Positions 2,684 through 38,058 of a stretch of DNA of 46,275 bases are shown one piece after another. The DNA comes from a virus: positions 1 through 46,275 of the IMG/VR virus record IMGVR_UViG_3300018003_000003, one strand, 5' to 3'. Under the pieces are notes generated by a model. That model made no database searches, was not told where the DNA came from, and saw nothing but the letters and a program-made list of their open reading frames with translations. Position numbers and translations under genes: made by a program. Position 1 is the stretch's first letter; each line of letters starts with the position of its first letter.

Positions 2684-3199
2684 TCACGCAGTTGTTATGT
2701 AGTAAATCTTATCGCCGCTGTGTTGAAACTGATAGTAGAGGTTCGTTAAATCGGAACACGCGAGGTCAACGTAGTTACCCGCGTATAGCGGAAAGTGTGG
2801 TGTGCTCGTGTTACCGATTAAAACGCCTGCTGCGTTATTGCTTGCATCAGCGACGACTCTAATTCTAGCGCCGCACGGTGTTGAAGAACCAGCGAACTTA
2901 TGTGCGAGTAAATCCGCTTCCGTAATCGCTCCGTCGACCTTAGCCGTAGGTGCGATAATCGTTATCGGAATTGTACCGTTAACGGGAGTAACACCAGAAA
3001 CACCAAAGTCTTCGAGCGTTAGCCCTGTGCATATAACGTTTATCGCGGGCGTACTACTATCTGGTAATGTCGTAAACAGACTGTTAAATAAGTCCGCCCA
3101 CTGAATAATCTCTGTGCCTTCTGCGTTATACGCGCCACCGCTGAAATCGCCGGCTGTGTCCATTCCGACTCGTATGCCCTGACTGTTCGTTGGAAACAT
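2684..3199 (-). CDS. Structural-block protein, unknown
   Basis: A 171-residue protein of mixed hydrophobic/Thr composition without a recognised domain. It contains 'GIRVGMDTAGDFSGGAY' near the start and a C-terminal segment 'LYYQFQHSGDKIYYI' that looks like a beta-hairpin. It lies in the uninterrupted virion operon between two genes of similar style, with 8-9 bp spacing, so a small virion or head-completion role is inferred. Confidence 0.7.
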   Translation of the reverse strand: MFPTNSQGIRVGMDTAGDFSGGAYNAEGTEIIQWADLFNSLFTTLPDSSTPAINVICTGLTLEDFGVSGVTPVNGTIPITIIAPTAKVDGAITEADLLAHKFAGSSTPCGARIRVVADASNNAAGVLIGNTSTPHFPLYAGNYVDLACSDLTNLYYQFQHSGDKIYYITTA

Positions 3200-3208
3200 T
3201 TTCGTGCC

Positions 3209-3826
3209 TCACTGAGTCTGGATATAGAACAACATTATATCGGTTGAGCCGTGTGCTGCACCAGTTCCGGGAGTCACGTATGCGTTAACTACTGTCTGGC
3301 TGGTGTAAAACTTAAACTTCGGATGTCCCCACGTCGTTACGGCTTCTGAATCGTTCTGAACGCCACTCACCCACGTATCTGCCGCGTAACTAACTGCTGT
3401 ATCGTCGCCAGCTTCAGCACCACTTACGATAGAAACCGAGCCGCCGTCAAAGATATTCCCAGCGCCGCCGGTATATCCAACTGAAATAGACGCGTCTGTG
3501 CCGTCCCAACTTGTATTACACATTGAAATAGCACTAATAAGAAGAGACTTAGCCGGTAACGTTCCTATTGCTTGCGTAGCGCCACCGTTATACGTCACGG
3601 TCTTTTTTATCATCTGAAGCGTTCCGATGCCTAATGCGGCACCAGTGACAGCGCCGGCAGCTAGATTTCCGGTTTCTACGGCCCCAGAAGCGAGTAGTGA
3701 ATTTACTATCGAGCCGGGAGCGAGTACTGTTATCTCGTCGTCCGCGAAATCTTCTTGCTTCAGTTTTCCGGTTAACAGTGTATGTAAGCACCCCGCCGAG
3801 TCTGCGCTAATGTAAATGTCTGTCAT
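3209..3826 (-). CDS. Structural-block protein, possible decoration/tail protein
   Basis: A 205-residue protein. Residues 40-80 are a Gly/Ala-rich stretch ('GAVETGNLAAGAVTGAALG') typical of repeat-like phage virion proteins. After about residue 80 comes a beta-rich domain with Gly and Thr clusters. No family was recognised. Location between the capsid genes and the fibre-like gene supports a virion role. Confidence 0.72.
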   Translation of the reverse strand: MTDIYISADSAGCLHTLLTGKLKQEDFADDEITVLAPGSIVNSLLASGAVETGNLAAGAVTGAALGIGTLQMIKKTVTYNGGATQAIGTLPAKSLLISAISMCNTSWDGTDASISVGYTGGAGNIFDGGSVSIVSGAEAGDDTAVSYAADTWVSGVQNDSEAVTTWGHPKFKFYTSQTVVNAYVTPGTGAAHGSTDIMLFYIQTQ

Positions 3827-3878
3827 TTCTTAGCCTCCTTCTTAAAAAGGGAGGTGAGAAGGGCGAATCGCCCTTTCT

Positions 3879-4061
3879 CTACTTTTTCTTTACTTCGCTT
3901 GGTCGCACCATCTTGTCTTCTGGCGGGGCGGATACGTTTTTTAGTTCGGTGTAGACCGCTGCGTGAATCTCAACGTATCTAGCTGCCCGAACGTCGTCGA
4001 ACGTAGCTACTTCGCCAATGTTATAAGGTGGCACTTTTCCAATGAATTTTATTTCTTTCAT
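3879..4061 (-). CDS. Small basic protein in capsid operon
   Basis: A 60-residue protein starting 'MKEIKFIGKVPPYNIGEVATF', with a Lys-rich tail. The 'F.G..PPYN.GEVA.f' opening resembles very small phage head-tail connector-region proteins that begin with a short beta-hairpin. It starts 5 bp after the 223-residue gene and has a 52-bp gap to the next gene. Function is not assigned. Confidence 0.6.
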   Translation of the reverse strand: MKEIKFIGKVPPYNIGEVATFDDVRAARYVEIHAAVYTELKNVSAPPEDKMVRPSEVKKK

Positions 4062-4066
4062 CGGGG

Positions 4067-4738
4067 TTACTGTCCCTGCGAGTAGTAAGGTACATACGTG
4101 CTCGTTGGCTGAGCGCCGCTGCTCACTATCACTGGCATAGTGTCGCCAGCTCCTAGAAGCAGGTTAACATCCATCAACATAGCCGAGTCGTAGCTGGTTG
4201 AAACAGGCGTGTCGACCACAGTTATGATAGGCGCGACGTAGTTACCGACCACATTAGCGTCTCTGAAACTACCGAAGAATCGGGCTTCTATGAGCGTTGG
4301 TGTGCTCGACGCGAGCGTAGGTGCGGTGTACACATACGGCTGGTCGACGAAACCTGCTGGAATAGCGGTGACGTGCGTTGCCGATGGCTCAGCGTTAAGA
4401 TAGAGCTGCTTGTACAGTGGGCTCTGTTCGACTTTCGTCGAGTCTGTGCTAGTGAATGGCGTCCACGTAGACCCGTCTGGCGAAGCTGCCATAACAGCTT
4501 CTAGAGAAACTGTGTTGCCAGCATCCATATCGAGTCCGAGAACCATCTGTAACATCCACGACCAGTACCCCATTCTGTCAAAAGAATTAAGCGTGGTGGC
4601 CGCACTCGTAGGCGAAGCTCCTGTTGGAGCCACGACCGTAGTCTTAGCTGTTGCAGAAACGCTTGGCGCTGGAATTGCCACAGAGTGTCCGAGGTTCACA
4701 ACCTGAACGCGACTTGAAATATCGTAATATCTAACCAT
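4067..4738 (-). CDS. Capsid-adjacent structural protein (decoration/head protein candidate)
   Basis: A 223-residue Ala/Thr/Ser/Val-rich protein without a recognised motif. It starts 13 bp after the major capsid gene, the usual place for a head decoration, head-tail adaptor or minor capsid protein. Composition and lack of charged catalytic clusters argue for a structural rather than enzymatic role. Which structural role cannot be told from the sequence alone. Confidence 0.72.
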   Translation of the reverse strand: MVRYYDISSRVQVVNLGHSVAIPAPSVSATAKTTVVAPTGASPTSAATTLNSFDRMGYWSWMLQMVLGLDMDAGNTVSLEAVMAASPDGSTWTPFTSTDSTKVEQSPLYKQLYLNAEPSATHVTAIPAGFVDQPYVYTAPTLASSTPTLIEARFFGSFRDANVVGNYVAPIITVVDTPVSTSYDSAMLMDVNLLLGAGDTMPVIVSSGAQPTSTYVPYYSQGQ

Positions 4739-26238: not shown

Positions 26239-27087
26239 TTAGCTCATCTCTTCGCTTAATCTACGTTTTGTCATTTCGACATACTTAGCGTTCACGTCGA
26301 TGCCAATATACCCGCGACCCAGTCTTCTCGCTACGAGGCACGTCGTTCCGCTGCCGACGAACGGGTCTAGTACCGTTCCATTCTCGGGACAGCCGGCGAG
26401 TATCATCGGTTCTACGAGCGCCTCGGGGAACACGGCGAAATGTTCTTCTGTGTTAGCGCGAGGGGGGTTAATGCTCCACACGCAGCGCTTATTTCGCCCG
26501 CGCTCTGGGTCGATAGACTCGATAATTCGGCGTTTAGTGTCACTCGGGTTCTGCGCTTTAGCACTCGAATAGTCCTTCTGTGCTCGCCCCCCGTATGCTT
26601 TCTGCTTTAGCGTTATCTCGGCATACGGCTCAAAAATCTGGTTCCAGTAGTAGTCTTTCGACTTTACGAAGTGATAGACATACTCAAAATCCAGAGTGAA
26701 ATCGTCCTTCACGCTCTGCGGAAGGCAGCTCGGCTTATGCCAGATGATTGTTCTTCGCTTTAGCCACGTGTAACGACAGTAAAAGTCCATAGCAAAACGC
26801 ATAGCCAGCGCGAACTGTTCTGGAATCATTAGGTCGCTCTTATTATAAAACGTAGTTCCAATAACGACAAAAACGTTTCCGGTGTCCTTCAGTACCTTAT
26901 GAACTTCGCTGAAGATGCTCATTAGATTTTTAATATACTCAGCTACCGAAAGCTCGGTTCCCAACCTGCTACCATATTCGCGTAGGTTATAGTAGGGTGG
27001 AGATGTGACGACGCAGTCGACTGACCCGGGTTTTAGCGTTTTTAGGACGTCTTTAGCATCGCCGTGAATCGCTTCTCTGATTAACAT
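26239..27087 (-). CDS. DNA methyltransferase, N4-cytosine/N6-adenine type, beta-class order
   Basis: 282 residues. The catalytic motif comes first (S29-P-P-Y32 in 'VVTSPPYYNLREYG') and the S-adenosylmethionine motif last ('LDPFVGSGTTCLVARRLGRGYIGIDVN'), the beta-class order. The SPPY form is common in N4-cytosine enzymes, though N6-adenine cannot be excluded. No matching restriction gene is adjacent, so it is an orphan enzyme, probably protecting viral DNA or altering expression. A TTAACA-N2-TGTTAA dyad covers its start codon. Confidence 0.88.
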   Translation of the reverse strand: MLIREAIHGDAKDVLKTLKPGSVDCVVTSPPYYNLREYGSRLGTELSVAEYIKNLMSIFSEVHKVLKDTGNVFVVIGTTFYNKSDLMIPEQFALAMRFAMDFYCRYTWLKRRTIIWHKPSCLPQSVKDDFTLDFEYVYHFVKSKDYYWNQIFEPYAEITLKQKAYGGRAQKDYSSAKAQNPSDTKRRIIESIDPERGRNKRCVWSINPPRANTEEHFAVFPEALVEPMILAGCPENGTVLDPFVGSGTTCLVARRLGRGYIGIDVNAKYVEMTKRRLSEEMS

Positions 27088-30181: not shown

Positions 30182-30317
30182 TTCGCGGGGCGACTTTTAA
30201 AATGTCTTTCTTTCGTTGCATCCAACAGCTTGAACACGTGTAAACCGGCTGGCGGTCTACGTAAGTGATTAAATAAATTTCTTCGTCTATCTCAGCATCG
30301 CACGTGTTACAGTTCAT
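30171..30317 (-). CDS. 48-residue zinc-knuckle protein
   Basis: Uses the ATG at 30317, which overlaps the terminase-nuclease stop (TAATG). A longer frame from 30362 is not needed. 'MNCNTCDAEIDEEIYLITYVDRQPVYTCSSCWMQRKKD' is a two-CxxC ribbon. Confidence 0.6.
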   Translation of the reverse strand: MNCNTCDAEIDEEIYLITYVDRQPVYTCSSCWMQRKKDILKVAPRNER

Positions 30318-31126
30318 TAGAACAGCCTCAGAGGGCCAAGTCCGGCTTCCCGCTCTAACCACCAGATAGCCAGCATTAACGCCGAGACTGCGTCGTCGTG
30401 ATGTCCCGTGCCAGCTTCGTATTTATCCCATCCGCTTTCCTGTACGCGCATTTGGAAATTATCTATCTCGGCCTTTAAGAGCTTCATTCCTTCGTTAAAT
30501 CTACCTGTTATGAGCCGTCCTTCGAATCTGATACGGTCGTCTTCGAGGACTTTTTTAAGGGTATTTACCAGTTCGGGCTTAGGGATGTTCCTTTCGTAGT
30601 CGCTGACGTGTGCTCGACGTCCTGATGTTACGTACATCCGATATATGTCTGCATGAGGCATTGCTTCGTCGATAACGTCGACCATCGGGTCGGCTCCGCC
30701 CGAGTCTATGCAATAAATGACTTCCTTAACGTTTTTCTTTTTCCTGAGTATGCCATCAAGCCGGACGATTGCCCTTGCTATGTCGGTATACGGCGTTCCA
30801 AGCGCCACAGGCACGACTTTATGAACAAGATACGTAGGTGAGTTATTCATATCCGAAGGTTCTACTACTACCATCACCGTAGCATCGCTTTGTTTGCCGA
30901 GGTCTATGCCTACTACCATTTGTCCTATGCCAGATAGTCGTTTCTTTTCTTTTTTCTCTTCGCGGGCCGATTTCTGAGCTTCAGTCGGCATTTTCTGACC
31001 CGGACGTCCGAACTTCTTTAGTTCTTCATTCGATACTTCTCTTTCTAACCCCCAGATATACGAGCCTTCTCTAGGCTTCGCGTCTGGTATGTTGTTCAGA
31101 GGGCGCTCGTCGTGAGTGAATCTCAT
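30317..31126 (-). CDS. Terminase large subunit, nuclease half
   Basis: 269 residues. After a charged linker (1-66), the RNase H-like nuclease core shows D75 ('VVGIDLGKQSDAT'), D141 ('YCIDSGGADP') and 'GHHDDAVSALMLAIWWLE' (D244/D245), the acidic triad of large terminases. No ATPase motifs are present; those are in the gene at 31472-32320. Both proteins probably act together in DNA packaging, translocation and genome cutting. Confidence 0.86.
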   Translation of the reverse strand: MRFTHDERPLNNIPDAKPREGSYIWGLEREVSNEELKKFGRPGQKMPTEAQKSAREEKKEKKRLSGIGQMVVGIDLGKQSDATVMVVVEPSDMNNSPTYLVHKVVPVALGTPYTDIARAIVRLDGILRKKKNVKEVIYCIDSGGADPMVDVIDEAMPHADIYRMYVTSGRRAHVSDYERNIPKPELVNTLKKVLEDDRIRFEGRLITGRFNEGMKLLKAEIDNFQMRVQESGWDKYEAGTGHHDDAVSALMLAIWWLEREAGLGPLRLF

Positions 31127-31272
31127 TTATTCTCCTTAGCGAAAAATCGTCTTTTTTTCTCATCTTCGCATCGCGGGCATAATGCCATACCAACGGTATA
31201 TCTGACGATTTCCGGCCACGTTGCCTTAATAGATTTTTCGACTATATTTTCTGTTTTCCCATTATCAGTCAT
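31123..31272 (-). CDS. 49-residue zinc-type protein between terminase halves
   Basis: 'TWPEIVRYTVGMALCPRCEDEKKRRFF': a single CxxC near a basic C-terminus. The stop overlaps the start of the terminase nuclease gene (ATGA), so it is translated with it. Role unknown. Confidence 0.55.
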   Translation of the reverse strand: MTDNGKTENIVEKSIKATWPEIVRYTVGMALCPRCEDEKKRRFFAKENK

Positions 31273-31439
31273 ACGTAACACTTCTTTTCTGTTGGTAAGT
31301 CTATCACTTCAAGTTTCTTTTCGCCGGCCCATTCTATGCGTGAGTGCTTACAGATAATGTAAAACTCGACGCTAACCAGTTGCCGATTATGACAGTCGCG
31401 CTCGACACACTGTTTATTATTCAGCTTACAGATTATCAT
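31269..31439 (-). CDS. 56-residue Cys-rich protein between terminase halves
   Basis: 'ICKLNNKQCVERDCHNRQLVSVEFYIICKHSRIEW' has a CKLNxxxCxxxxC layout. Another Cys is near the end. Overlaps the next gene (ATGA). Role unknown. Confidence 0.55.
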   Translation of the reverse strand: MIICKLNNKQCVERDCHNRQLVSVEFYIICKHSRIEWAGEKKLEVIDLPTEKKCYV

Positions 31440-31471
31440 TTCTTTCTGTGAATCTCTTTTTTACTTCTCAT

Positions 31472-32320
31472 CTATACCCCTATGTCGAAGTCCCAATCGT
31501 CGTTTTCATCAGTCCACGCGTCGTCTGAGTATTGGAATATATTAGAAATATTTTCTATAAACTCACAATGATATTCCTGTTCGAACTTCCAGCTCACCAT
31601 TCGGTCTTTCTCTTCCTGTAAGAATTCCGATGTTATTCGCGGGCAGTCTTCGGCTTTAACGCTGAACCATCGCCAGCCCGGTTTATTATCTTCGTGAGCT
31701 TCAGTCCACGCCTCGAAGAAGAAACCACGCTTACCGTGCGGGGTGGAGAGTAGCATAATTTTAGTTTCCATCCCCATACCCTCCGATACGGCAAGCATTG
31801 GGCGAACAAAATCATAAGCGTCTTCCTCTACCATAGAGGCTTCGTCTACTATAAGAAGTGTAAGTTTTGACCACCCTCTGAGCGAATCCGGCTGGCGGCC
31901 AGTCATCGCCATAATTCTAGCTTTATTAGCGAACTCGACCTCGAAGACTGTATCTTTTAACGTGCCGATTCTGTCGGGAACGTGACCGTAGAACTCCATT
32001 ATCTTTCTGAAGGTTTCCTTCGCTTGCTTTTCGGTGTTAGAAATGATAATTACTAACGCTTTGGGCGTGTGTAGCGCGTGATGTAACGCCATTAGCGCGG
32101 TTATCGTCGATTTACCAGACTGCCGACAGCAGTTCAGAATAATCCGTCGAGAATCCGAGCGTAGAACCTCTTTCTGCCATTCGTCTAGCTCGACTGGTTT
32201 TCCCAAGTCACGGCTGAGAACGTCATTAGCGAAAACAACCGGGTTCTGATAGGCAATAGCCTGTATCTCTTTTTTAGTTAAGCCGGTTCCTAACGGCTTC
32301 TTCTTCGGTTTTCTACCCAT
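31472..32320 (-). CDS. Terminase large subunit, ATPase half
   Basis: 282 residues. Walker A is at 63-72 ('NCCRQSGKST', the deviant form of phage terminases), Walker B at about 154-160 ('LLIVDEASMVEE'), and the coupling motif at 192-194 ('LSTPHG'). The chain ends at an acidic tail ('DDAWTDENDDWDFDIGV') with no nuclease domain. The stop is followed by a tiny ATG frame (11 codons). It powers DNA translocation and pairs with the nuclease gene at 30317-31126. Confidence 0.9.
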   Translation of the reverse strand: MGRKPKKKPLGTGLTKKEIQAIAYQNPVVFANDVLSRDLGKPVELDEWQKEVLRSDSRRIILNCCRQSGKSTITALMALHHALHTPKALVIIISNTEKQAKETFRKIMEFYGHVPDRIGTLKDTVFEVEFANKARIMAMTGRQPDSLRGWSKLTLLIVDEASMVEEDAYDFVRPMLAVSEGMGMETKIMLLSTPHGKRGFFFEAWTEAHEDNKPGWRWFSVKAEDCPRITSEFLQEEKDRMVSWKFEQEYHCEFIENISNIFQYSDDAWTDENDDWDFDIGV

Positions 32321-32323
32321 AGT

Positions 32324-32340
32324 TTAACACGACGTGTTAA
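32324..32340. promoter_or_regulatory. Operator-like dyad upstream of terminase ATPase
   Basis: TTAACA-N5-TGTTAA, four bases before the terminase ATG. The + strand TTA at 32324-32326 is also the stop codon of the 39-residue gene. Confidence 0.5.
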
Positions 32341-32443
32341 TGAACCTGTAAAACAAAAATATACCTCTCAGCGTGTCAGCTAATCTCAGAGGGTAAACAA
32401 CTGAAATTACGTGATGCTTCTTTATTTTACTATTCCCTTTCAT
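32324..32443 (-). CDS. 39-residue basic peptide in terminase operon
   Basis: 'MKGNSKIKKHHVISVVYPLRLADTLRGIFLFYRFINTSC', basic then hydrophobic. GGAG lies about 8 nt before the ATG. Its upstream operator is at 32458-32471 and its stop codon lies in the next operator. Role unknown. Confidence 0.5.
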   Translation of the reverse strand: MKGNSKIKKHHVISVVYPLRLADTLRGIFLFYRFINTSC

Positions 32444-32457
32444 TTTTAATCTCCTGT

Positions 32458-32471
32458 TTAACACGTGTTAA
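32458..32471. promoter_or_regulatory. Operator-like perfect palindrome
   Basis: TTAACACGTGTTAA, a perfect 14-bp palindrome at the end of the small terminase gene (it contains that gene's stop codon) and 15 bp before the 39-residue gene's ATG. The same 14 bp occur at 42329-42342. Confidence 0.65.
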
Positions 32472-33016
32472 TTCTGTGACATTTCAAGTAACGTAGTCAT
32501 ATACTCTTCTTGTTTCGCGGGGTCGTTCGGGAAGATAACCTTAAGCTTCTTCGCGACGTCCTTCGGGTCTTTAATGTCTATCTGTATAGGCTCTTGCGGG
32601 ACGATTCCTATAGATTGAGCTGCCTGTAGCTTTCTGAACGTGATTTCCTTAAGCTCAGCGGCAGCTCTTTGGCGTTCTCGCATATCGGGAAGTTTAAACG
32701 GCCACATCGGTCGCCCTTCTTCAGTGAGTAACATCCCGTTTGAATCTGTCCTGTCAGGCGAGGCGTCGATGATTAGCCAGTTCCGACGAATCAGTTCGTC
32801 TAGCTCGAAGAGTGTGTCTTTTATCATTTTGTCCTTATCAGGCTCTTCGACTATGTCCCACTCGTTTCGCTTCTTCCAGTCGCGATAAAGCTGTTGTTTA
32901 CCAACGTGATAAATCTTAGCGATTTTATTAACGGCTTCAGACTTTCGGGCTCCGTGAGCCATTAAAAGATAAAAGTCCATTCGACGTTTTTGAATCTCTT
33001 CTTGTTTTTTTGTCAT
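32468..33016 (-). CDS. Small terminase subunit
   Basis: 182 residues from the ATG at 33016, which overlaps the preceding stop (ATGA). The N-terminal frame extension is not used. A helix-turn-helix at about 12-50 ('GARKSEAVNKIAKIYHVGKQQLYRDW') binds DNA. The middle is helical, for oligomerisation, and the C-terminal 'IDIKDPKDVAKKLKVIFPNDPAKQEEYMTTLLEM' may contact the large subunit. It recognises the packaging site. Confidence 0.82.
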   Translation of the reverse strand: MTKKQEEIQKRRMDFYLLMAHGARKSEAVNKIAKIYHVGKQQLYRDWKKRNEWDIVEEPDKDKMIKDTLFELDELIRRNWLIIDASPDRTDSNGMLLTEEGRPMWPFKLPDMRERQRAAAELKEITFRKLQAAQSIGIVPQEPIQIDIKDPKDVAKKLKVIFPNDPAKQEEYMTTLLEMSQN

Positions 33017-33141
33017 CGTGAAAGCAACTCCCCTAGAGCGCAGTACAAACAACCGATGTCATCCTGATTTGCCCTTCTGTCGGGGCTCCTACACTTTCGG
33101 TTTTTTGACCACTGACATACTATCTTTTCATTATCGTTCAT
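33013..33141 (-). CDS. 42-residue cysteine protein at terminase operon head
   Basis: 'IVCQWSKNRKCRSPDRRANQDDIGCLYC', four cysteines in a CxxxxxxxxC/CxxC arrangement with a basic middle, suggesting a small DNA- or RNA-binding finger. First gene after a TATA-like box and overlapping the small terminase start by 4 bp. Confidence 0.6.
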   Translation of the reverse strand: MNDNEKIVCQWSKNRKCRSPDRRANQDDIGCLYCALGELLSR

Positions 33142-33159: not shown

Positions 33160-33174
33160 TGAGTTTATATAAAT
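33160..33174 (-). promoter_or_regulatory. Promoter of the terminase operon
   Basis: The minus-strand TATA box ATTTATATAAAC has a purine-rich GCGAAA before it and lies about 25-30 nt before the ATG at 33141, the expected archaeal distance for a leaderless or short-leader transcript. It overlaps the end of the GNAT gene. Confidence 0.6.
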
Positions 33175-33818
33175 TTCGCACCTTTCATCTTTTTACGGTC
33201 GAGTAAGTAGTATCTCATCACCGCCAGTTTACTCTGCGCTTGTGTCTCTGACCTGACTTTACCGCCTTTAGCCTCATAAAGCCACGTGTGCGGATTCACT
33301 CTAGAACGAACGCCTCGGTTGCCTATTAAGGTAGACTTCTGCTTTCGTTTGTTCGACTTACCGCCTATGGCAACGGTTCCGCCTATGGTGTCACTTAGAG
33401 TTTGGCCGTAGTCGATGAAACCAGCCTTTTTCCAGAAGAGGTTTACCTTACCCATCGAGGCTATTAGCTCCACGTATCGCACGTCTACCAAATCGTCATA
33501 CAGGCACACTGCCGCAACGAAATCAGAAGCTATCCCACATCCTCTATAGCGTGGGTCGATAACGACGCGACTAAGATTAATGAACTTGGCATTTGTTAGT
33601 TTCGCTCCTTTCGTGGTCATCTTCTTAGAAATCTTACCGCCGAAGACCTTATTACGAACCGAGTTTGCCAGACCCGGCGGACTGAAGCTGATAAACGCGA
33701 TGGGTTCGCCGTTATGAATAAGAGTGTAGGCGCATCTTATGAATCCGATTTCTGAGCCTCGATAGTGCCACTTACTGAATCTGTTCCAATCGCTTCGAGA
33801 GCCTCGTGCAATGAACAA
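33165..33818 (-). CDS. GNAT-fold, Mom-like acyltransferase (possible C-terminal half of COG2401-type protein)
   Basis: 217 residues from TTG. An N-terminal block 'ARGSRSDWNRFSKWHYRGSEIGF' precedes acyl-CoA-type motif A 'SRVVIDPRYRGCGIASDFV' and 'FWKKAGFIDYGQT', then a basic tail. This resembles the GNAT part of COG2401 proteins (ABC-type ATPase fused to an acetyltransferase domain) and, more distantly, Mu Mom, which modifies adenine in DNA. It overlaps the ATPase gene by 82 bp. Slippage at an A9 run would join them in one chain. DNA modification is inferred. Confidence 0.72.
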   Translation of the reverse strand: MFIARGSRSDWNRFSKWHYRGSEIGFIRCAYTLIHNGEPIAFISFSPPGLANSVRNKVFGGKISKKMTTKGAKLTNAKFINLSRVVIDPRYRGCGIASDFVAAVCLYDDLVDVRYVELIASMGKVNLFWKKAGFIDYGQTLSDTIGGTVAIGGKSNKRKQKSTLIGNRGVRSRVNPHTWLYEAKGGKVRSETQAQSKLAVMRYYLLDRKKMKGAKFI

Positions 33819-34468
33819 ATCGTCATAAAAGCTAATTTTTTTTTAATTTCGTTCTGATGTGAGACTTCCGCACCCTCGGCGCCGAAGGTAACTATAATGT
33901 CAGGATATAAGTCTTCTAGGATGTCCTCGTGTGTCGTCGCGACAGCGAGAATCTTATCTGTTTTTCTAATCGCTTTTCCTATGCTGAAGGCGATAGTCTT
34001 CGCTGAGATTCTGTCTAACGTTGCAAGAAATTCGTCGCACACTACCACAGAATTTTTGCTTGATAACCCCAACGCCAGCTTAAACCGATAGCGCTGGCCG
34101 TCGGATAACTCTTGAGGGTATCGAACAAGAAGTTGAGCTTCTGCCAGCCCCGCGATTGAAAGATTCTTCAGGGCTTCGTCATAATCGGCGAAGTGTTCTA
34201 TGACGGTTTTCTCCGGCTCGAAGACTATCTCGCGAAGGTCGTAGGCTTCTGTTTGCGCCTTAAGCTGCTCTAGGCACGTAGTTTTTCCGGTTCCAGATAT
34301 GCCTACAAAAGCGATTATCTGTCCGGGCTTGGCCTCGATTGTAAAGGGAGCTACGTAGACGCGTTTGCCCTGTTCGGCGTCTAGGCCGAAGCTGCCATAG
34401 ACACGGCCAGCCTGTAGACTTGGTCTTTTAGGTTTCAGCTCGTACTCCACGGAACATTTTACTTTCAT
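33737..34468 (-). CDS. ABC-type ATPase (N-terminal half of COG2401-like protein)
   Basis: 243 residues from the ATG at 34468 (overlaps the preceding stop). Walker A 'GISGTGKTT' at 56-64, signature 'LSDGQRYRFKLAL' at 121-133, Walker B 'VVVCDEFLATLD' at about 141-152, H-loop 'TTHED' at 179-183. The signature and Walker motifs are those of soluble ABC ATPases. No membrane domain is nearby. The last ~35 residues after the A9 run differ from the expected fusion. Confidence 0.82.
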   Translation of the reverse strand: MKVKCSVEYELKPKRPSLQAGRVYGSFGLDAEQGKRVYVAPFTIEAKPGQIIAFVGISGTGKTTCLEQLKAQTEAYDLREIVFEPEKTVIEHFADYDEALKNLSIAGLAEAQLLVRYPQELSDGQRYRFKLALGLSSKNSVVVCDEFLATLDRISAKTIAFSIGKAIRKTDKILAVATTHEDILEDLYPDIIVTFGAEGAEVSHQNEIKKKLAFMTICSLHEALEAIGTDSVSGTIEAQKSDS

Positions 34469-34614
34469 TTTAACTCTCGCTCTTTTCGGTCTATCTGGTT
34501 CTGAATAATCTCTCGCCATAAGTCAGGGTATAGATACACAATAGACATAGGGAATAACTCATCTGGAAAGACTGTCATCCAGCGCTTCATTAACTTAACG
34601 TCTTCTTCGGTCAT
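34465..34614 (-). CDS. 49-residue helical protein
   Basis: 'EDVKLMKRWMTVFPDELFPMSIVYLYPDLWREIIQNQIDRKEREL', helical and acidic/basic. Starts with the GTCAT-type ATG after the PQ-loop gene and overlaps the ATPase start (ATGA). Probably part of the same operon. Role unknown. Confidence 0.5.
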   Translation of the reverse strand: MTEEDVKLMKRWMTVFPDELFPMSIVYLYPDLWREIIQNQIDRKERELK

Positions 34615-34873: not shown

Positions 34874-35049
34874 TATAAACCACACATCTTAAGCTCAGCT
34901 TCGCTCATTTCAGATTTAGGAATAGTTACCCACGAGAAGCTGCACTTCGGACACGTCGAGAGAATGACGTCCAGAGAGAGAATAAATTCTGGAACAATCT
35001 CTAGGCACGCGCCCTTACACCACGGACAGAGTATCTTTATGGTTTCCAC
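34873..35049 (-). CDS. Zinc-ribbon protein with GTG start
   Basis: 58 residues: 'ILCPWCKGACLEIVPEFILSLDVILSTCPKCSFSWV', two CxxC knuckles. It overlaps the HNH gene (upstream) by 13 bp and the PQ-loop gene's ATG by one base. Role unknown. Confidence 0.6.
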   Translation of the reverse strand: METIKILCPWCKGACLEIVPEFILSLDVILSTCPKCSFSWVTIPKSEMSEAELKMCGL

Positions 35050-35366
35050 GTCTTCGCTTCCTTTGCTCGTGCTCTGAATAGCTCAGCGTCTTCTCTTATT
35101 CGCGGGTTGAATTTCTTCCAGTTACAGAAATGCCCGAAGGTGAAATGATGCTCTTCGCAAAGAGCGAACAGATTCTCGACGTCTAGCTCCTTAGTCCGGT
35201 CGACCCAGTAGGGTACGACGTGATGTGCGACTAAGGTTTTTACGCCTCGGTTACGAACGCCACAGAACTCGCACTTATCGTGTAGCTTAAGGAACTGCCT
35301 TCTTAGCCTGTCCCATTCAGAGTTGCGGGTGATTCGCGCCAGTTCAAGCGGTTCTTTGTGTTGCAT
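35037..35366 (-). CDS. HNH endonuclease (second copy type)
   Basis: 109 residues: 'LRRQFLKLHDKCEFCGVRN' (CxxC), 'TLVAHHVVPYWVDRTKELDVENLFALCEEHHFTFGHFCNWKKF' (AHH, Asn, 'LC..HH..FGH'). The C-terminal layout is closely parallel to the 21.6-kb HNH protein, suggesting an ancient duplication. Typical of phage HNH packaging nucleases or homing enzymes. Adjacent to neither terminase gene. Confidence 0.8.
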   Translation of the reverse strand: MQHKEPLELARITRNSEWDRLRRQFLKLHDKCEFCGVRNRGVKTLVAHHVVPYWVDRTKELDVENLFALCEEHHFTFGHFCNWKKFNPRIREDAELFRARAKEAKTWKP

Positions 35367-37479: not shown

Positions 37480-38058
37480 TCATACCTGTTGAATATGCGG
37501 AGTTAAGTTCGTTATCGAAATGAACTGCTCTATCGAATCCTTGTTATTCTCATATTCGGGCTTGCTCATTCTGAACGATATAATAATAAAGTCCTTCTCT
37601 TCGCTCATTTCGCCGTCGAAGCTCGGCTCAGCGGTTAGTGGTTCAGCGAGAATCTCATCACGTTCGTTAATGTTAAACGCCGTGATGTCCAGATTTACTC
37701 CCGCATCGCGCAAGTCATCGAACATATCTATTAATTCGGCGTTATCCCACTCGCTCATCTCGGATAACTTATTATCCGCTATAAGATACGCTTCGTCGAG
37801 GTGCTCGGGGAATTTAAATATCCTGACAGGGAATGTCTTTAGTCCCGCGCGTTTAGCGGCCTTAAGTCGAGCGTGTCCGGCTATGATGTTATAGTCCTCG
37901 TCGACTATCATAGGCACGGTCGTACCGAAGTTATTAAAGCTCTCGATTAAGCGTTTTATCTCATCTTCTGAGTGTACTCTAGGATTTCGCGGGTTGCCTT
38001 TCAGCTTATCCAGCGGAACCTCTTCGTCGCGAATGAAGTACGGTGAATTATTCGTCAT
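37480..38058 (-). CDS. ParB/Srx-fold protein
   Basis: 192 residues. 'VPLDKLKGNPRNPRVHSEDEIKRLIESFNNFG' and 'VDEDYNIIAGHARLKAAKRAGLKTFPVRI' are the core of ParB-like nuclease/NTP-binding domains. The C-terminal part is helical. In phages such proteins often sit with DNA methyltransferases or replication genes. Here the methyltransferase is 10 kb away. Segregation or DNA modification are both possible. Confidence 0.8.
   Translation of the reverse strand: MTNNSPYFIRDEEVPLDKLKGNPRNPRVHSEDEIKRLIESFNNFGTTVPMIVDEDYNIIAGHARLKAAKRAGLKTFPVRIFKFPEHLDEAYLIADNKLSEMSEWDNAELIDMFDDLRDAGVNLDITAFNINERDEILAEPLTAEPSFDGEMSEEKDFIIISFRMSKPEYENNKDSIEQFISITNLTPHIQQV

Follow-up and report, generated by a model that had tools for sequence, protein, structure and literature searches.

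Does a gene whose ATPase and acyltransferase domains lie in different reading frames, on either side of a run of nine adenines (A9), still give rise to a joined protein? The question is raised by a locus on the minus strand of a 46,275-base virus record, which was analysed over its whole length and is referred to here as the window. A preliminary description of the same DNA had named a sequencing or replication slip, or programmed slippage giving both short and fused proteins, as explanations of its state. From a comparison across the family, we assign a probability of about 0.88 to A9 being a programmed recoding site, through which a single gene would supply a short ATPase and a long ATPase–GNAT protein.

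The ATPase/GNAT junction in the window

The ATPase frame (33737–34468, minus strand) starts with an ATG at 34468, stops at 33737–33739 and encodes 243 amino acids; with an alternative in-frame ATG at 34519, the ATPase would have 260. Its assignment as an ABC-type ATPase is based on Pfam (ABC_tran, 7.9e-11) and PHROG (phrog_11143, 1e-27), and the sequence contains a Walker A motif (GISGTGKT), an LSxGQ-type signature (ELSDGQ) and a Walker B motif (VVVCDEF). The slippery run lies at 33836–33844 (ATT AAA AAA AAA TTA, minus strand). Directly after it, C-terminal to the ATPase and in the −1 frame relative to it, comes the GNAT acyltransferase domain (33165–33835, minus strand), whose frame ends at 33165; relatives show the same order in frame. 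The GNAT domain is recognized from Pfam GNAT matches below cut-off, from phrog_886 (4.8e-16), with phrog_11143 also matched, from the GNAT fold in the core of an AlphaFold model and from a frame check. The exact coordinates and the frame check confirm the earlier observation that a −1 shift at A9 leads from the ATPase into the GNAT domain.

A TAA directly 5′ of the run shuts the GNAT frame, and the two domains can therefore be joined only inside the run. The stretch at 33737–33835 (minus strand) is read doubly, once as the end of the short product (a 32-codon tail and its stop) and once as the beginning of the GNAT domain. The long product (33165–34468, minus strand), predicted from the frames and from the in-frame fusions of relatives, would arise by a one-base slip at A9 and comprise 434 amino acids, in which 211 codons are followed by ISFYDDLFIARGSRSDWNRFSKWHYRG after an extra A in the mRNA or a −1 slip. 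A9 is the sole A/T run of at least eight bases in the record; the chance that all three lysine codons are AAA is about 0.14 in the window, with the codons considered alone.

The claim that A9 sits at a natural junction between ABC ATPase and GNAT is supported by the predicted structure of a fused relative, L066 (pLDDT 88, pTM 0.81). The ABC domain of this model comprises residues 1–203 and the GNAT domain residues 207–362, and the codons of its A10 run correspond to residues 202–204, in the inter-domain linker. The family of such fusions (phrog_11143) goes by the annotation “MK0520, COG2401”; for a relative in phage Cyrano, the label reads MK0520, with an ABC-type ATPase that is fused to a predicted acetyltransferase domain. 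The window had no match among phage records in a nucleotide search, an Rfam scan of it returned nothing, and PADLOC gave only weak mad3 and mad8 matches, which are taken to be general ATPase similarity.

The nearest relative (L001, in the 80,483-base virus record G001) has an ATPase 73% identical and a GNAT domain 68% identical in amino acid sequence to those of the window. This record contains exactly one A9, at codons homologous to those of the window and with the same −1 relation, and a stop codon again shuts the GNAT frame immediately before the run. That the run is unique in both records and sits at homologous codons speaks for more than chance. Lysine is encoded by AAA in 26 of 36 cases in L001. 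Conservation of A9 in the window's own lineage thus refers to two sequences, the window and the one near relative known. For the window lineage, synonymous reshuffling gives probabilities of 0.54 and 0.38 that the ATPase frame is open past the run, which is not improbable.

Probable recoding signals across the family

For the family survey, 435 loci with an ATPase of the ABC ATPase–GNAT family were collected from viral contigs, isolated phages, plasmids and bacterial genomes, and all counts refer to loci that are not phylogenetically independent. Where a GNAT domain adjoins the ATPase, 350 loci are in-frame fusions and 28 are frame-split. Every one of the 28 splits is −1 and none is +1; random breakage would yield both frames.

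Poly-A junctions are found in several parts of the family. In a second clade, whose ATPases are ~32% identical to that of the window, 129 loci carry A10 at the same junction with the GNAT domain in frame, and A10 is invariant among them although the flanks differ; the clade also includes five contigs with A9 and the GNAT domain at −1. Across the family, A9 occurs in nine loci, all with the GNAT domain at −1. A third poly-A lineage (L274) combines A10 with a GNAT domain at −1. The family tree, a quick build with long branches in which the exact placement is unsure, sets these clades far from the window lineage, and poly-A sites probably arose independently at least three times.

Isolated phages of Firmicutes have a −1 split with a different sequence in place of the A run: A_AAA_AAG in Enterococcus phage 9184, A_AAG_GGC in Oenococcus phage Vinitor-27 and a G5 run in Thomasclavelia phage TR-TP2. 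Phages of Streptococcus and Lactococcus carry a conserved T-rich site, CAGGTTTTTC or CAAGTTTTTC, followed by a stem-loop with z values of about −1.7 to −4.3. The stem of L194 and L196 has sequences unlike those of the P335 and Javan phages and an identical position; the occurrence of different stem sequences at the same place is good evidence for a working structure. A C5 run was also considered as the slip site of the Streptococcus and Lactococcus phages and rejected, as it is absent from L194 and L196 and forms one arm of the stem. In most frame-split clades, the short product ends at a homologous stop codon; that of the window lineage extends about nine codons further.

In-frame fusions that lack an A run mostly carry a further signal at the junction, NGG[A/G]GG-N3-CTT (SD-N3-CTT), which is a feature of these relatives and not of the window. 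It was found in 150 distinct ATPase–GNAT genes, from phages and from bacterial genome contigs of Planctomycetota, Nonomuraea, Endozoicomonas and others. The leucine at this site is encoded by CTT in 104/104 non-redundant genes, compared with 14.5 expected from their own codon usage. CTT is never swapped for another leucine codon, even in genomes near 70% GC, and the amino acid of the N3 codon varies. In 104 of 108 matches, SD and CTT are separated by 3 nt; at the 49,833 remaining codon positions in these genes, the motif does not occur once. A minority of members have GTT, GAA, CCC or CAC/CAA at the CTT position, and the SD hexamer is missing in 13. The A-site codon is CGG, AGG, CAA, TGG or CGA, and no stop codon occurs there.

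The frame entered by a +1 shift has a characteristic layout. It is open for at least 24 codons and stopped by codon 31 in 134 of 137 non-redundant genes with this signal (52 expected), and the A10 class shows the same open-then-stop pattern in 23/23 (4.2 expected), the expected counts coming from synonymous codon reshuffling, a simple null in which the amino acids are held fixed. The +1-frame stop typically lies 25–26 codons past the SD-N3-CTT signal and falls within the codons of the GNAT motif HYL-[SKTDN]. The short product of most frame-split clades terminates at this same stop, so that different clades would yield one pair of proteins, an ATPase with a short tail and an ATPase–GNAT protein. 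In these genes, in-frame reading gives the fusion, and it is the short product that a +1 shift would give. Two other origins of the motif were considered. It encodes a partly conserved peptide, R-[GR]-x-L-x-R-R-P, but its interpretation as a by-product of that peptide is rejected by the codon tests with amino acids held fixed, and a role as internal start site of the GNAT domain is rejected because most members have no start codon at the right distance.

The signal closely resembles that of prfB (RF2), in which +1 frameshifting is directed by AGGGGG-N3-CTT-TGA-C with the same 3-nt spacing (PMC12421855). Unlike prfB, the family sites have no A-site stop codon, and the shift would shorten the product. 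prfB genes that lack the stop codon lose the motif (PMC12421855), and prfB accounts for every CUU-type +1 site in RECODE (PMC10885494). Judged from the sequences, what is conserved in the family is thus the predicted two-product output and not the signal, which may be A9, A10, A_AAA_AAG, A_AAG_GGC, G5, a T-rich site with a stem-loop, or SD-N3-CTT.

Some loci show other arrangements. L033 and L165 encode a 574-aa in-frame fusion (2923–4644) that has an additional C-terminal region and lacks a recoding signal. In L048, a family ATPase (2962–3678) has no GNAT domain found nearby, and a long ORF follows in the same frame. In L182 (Tenacibaculum phage pT24, 2357–3529), ATPase and GNAT lie in the same frame with one in-frame stop codon between them, and the two parts are annotated as two ABC genes.

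Mechanism and alternative explanations

At the window locus, standard decoding would produce the 243-aa ABC ATPase with a 32-aa tail past the run. An extra A in the mRNA, or a −1 slip of the ribosome on A_AAA_AAA, would move translation into the −1 frame and produce the 434-aa ATPase–GNAT protein, and we infer that both products are made. Of the two routes, transcriptional slippage is the likeliest and can be considered quite likely, because the run is kept at nine adenines although ribosomal slippage would need just seven, and because no downstream structure is common to the window, L001, L051 and L066 (z is −1.9 in the window and +1.1 in L001). The pattern by which slippage genes are recognized, an A/T run of about nine whose length and place are conserved among homologs (PMC1088944), is found here. 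In the same work, conserved run length among homologs is regarded as a sign of purposeful slippage, and A/T runs are reported to be selected against from length 9 in many bacterial genomes (Baranov 2005, PMC1088944).

The precedent for slippage at such a run is dnaX of Thermus thermophilus, which resembles the window in that one gene with A9 yields long and short ATPase-containing products, about half of the product being short (PMC1088944). In E. coli, dnaX gives the same products by ribosomal frameshifting instead of transcriptional slippage (PMC1088944), so that two lengths of one ATPase made by recoding are already known. The differences are that dnaX encodes a DNA polymerase subunit and no modification enzyme, and that in the window it is standard decoding that would yield the short form.

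A −1 ribosomal frameshift on A_AAA_AAA is a variant of the recoding view with the same products, and a doubtful one for the window. The slippery heptamer is present in phase within the run, and family members elsewhere use A_AAA_AAG, A_AAG_GGC and the structured T-rich site; against it stand the run length of 9–10, beyond the seven that would do, and the lack of a consistent downstream stem-loop in the four loci compared above.

Two separately expressed genes, with the GNAT domain translated from its own TTG (33816–33818) and translationally coupled to the ATPase gene, are improbable. The window does have this TTG, but no ribosome-binding sequence lies 5′ of it, and the GNAT frame opens exactly at the run. 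L001 has CTC at the corresponding place and no ATG, GTG or TTG near the domain start in the GNAT frame, where the first start codon lies deep inside the domain. The preliminary description had looked to relatives with clearly separate genes and no conserved A run as evidence against a recoded gene. Such relatives exist: Nickievirus, SSU5, RHEph10 and similar phages have plain separate ATPase and GNAT genes, with homologous ABC and GNAT domains and a ParB-like neighbour as in the window family. Unlike the window, they have at least one gene between the two domains and no slip site, and neither the nearest relative nor most of the family is organized in this way.

It is very unlikely that the gene is broken or that A9 arose in a formerly in-frame fusion through a sequencing or assembly error. 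Homopolymers are error-prone and relatives do have true in-frame fusions, but the same run and frame recur in L001 and in the five contigs of another clade, the frame-split loci are uniformly −1, and isolates with quite different junctions are likewise split in this direction. Since L001 keeps A9 and the −1 frame without a GNAT start, error, decay and an independent GNAT start all become unlikely. Of the explanations put forward in the preliminary description, breakage and a sequencing or replication slip are thus disfavoured, and programmed slippage giving short and fused proteins gains support from the recurrence of A9 with the −1 frame and from the other signals that replace it elsewhere. 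Phase variation, in which run-length changes in the DNA would toggle the GNAT domain between phages, would suit the tendency of poly-A tracts to mutate by slippage and the presence of both A9 (−1) and A10 (in frame) in one clade, but is hardly credible when none of the 139 loci with A9 or A10 has an A11 or A12 allele and nearly every A9/A10 group has a single fixed run length.

Predicted function and implications

The ATPase–GNAT gene is situated between a ParB-like gene and the packaging genes. The ParB-like gene (37480–38058, minus strand; Pfam ParB_N 9.8e-11; phrog_620) is upstream of the ATPase gene, and the packaging region (30317–33052, minus strand) is downstream. The latter includes a possible small terminase (32468–33052, minus strand), proposed from its position, and the ATPase half (31472–32320, minus strand) and nuclease half (30317–31126, minus strand) of the terminase large subunit (TerL). 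In many relatives, a ParB-like gene adjoins the ATPase gene and terminase genes are near. The two TerL halves of the window are separate genes with two tiny ORFs between them; those of G001 (55298–56122 and 63919–64665) are 7.8 kb apart, and the ATPase/GNAT gene lies between them. The window also encodes a DNA methyltransferase (26239–27087) and an HNH endonuclease (35037–35366).

The AlphaFold model of the window GNAT domain has a pLDDT of 71 overall and of 76–95 for most of the core. The domain had been called Mom-like, and phage Mu Mom is indeed its best structural match (Foldseek rank 1, E 1.7e-5; Z 13.2, rmsd 3.3, 152 aligned residues), but other GNATs are tied with it (Z 12.9 and 12.8) and no match of the window GNAT to the Mom family was found by sequence. 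The resemblance in the model can therefore be taken as a hint. To our knowledge, Mu Mom is not fused to an ATPase.

A function has been proposed for this pair of domains. In the passages of PMC7824862 that concern the ABC ATPase–GNAT system, the ATPase-coupled GNAT is predicted to acylate a DNA base and phage pT24 is named. The base-acylation system of Iyer et al. 2013, as presented in these passages, has the same domain pair and phage context and includes pT24, and recoding is not described in them. Following this published genome-context prediction, we slightly favour the view that the long form would acylate a base of the phage DNA together with a ParB-like partner. In three loci (L177, L181 and L184, from Porphyromonas and Pseudomonas phages and a Delftia plasmid), a formyltransferase-like gene lies 3′ of the ATPase–GNAT gene, which perhaps hints at the donor chemistry.

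ABC domains function as dimers. Short and long forms that share the ATPase could form mixed dimers with zero, one or two acyltransferase domains, and the frequency of slippage would set the ratio of short to long form and hence the number of GNAT domains per dimer.

A term search of the GeneTack, Atkins 2016 and PRFect papers found no mention of the ABC ATPase–GNAT family. As far as the open literature was searched, recoding in this family, the repeated replacement of its signal and a stop-less prfB-type +1 site outside prfB are new. We consider it fairly probable that ABC ATPase–GNAT is the first large family besides prfB with a conserved, stop-less SD-N3-CTT +1 frameshift, here leading to a shorter product, that poly-A and several −1 sites replaced this signal repeatedly, and that a fixed mixture of ATPase and ATPase–GNAT is an old and obligatory part of a DNA-modifying complex of phages and bacteria.

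A two-product output that is kept under selection while its recoding signal is repeatedly swapped would represent a natural experiment on the evolution of recoding signals, and the family points to an occurrence of the RF2 signal beyond prfB. For annotation pipelines, the consequence is that an ATPase–GNAT gene may be called as two genes or that one form may be missed. The two-product output seems to matter to the ABC ATPase–GNAT system; its active form is probably a mixed complex, and expressing one protein alone may fail. The family also gives a testable handle on a predicted and uncharacterised DNA-modification system.
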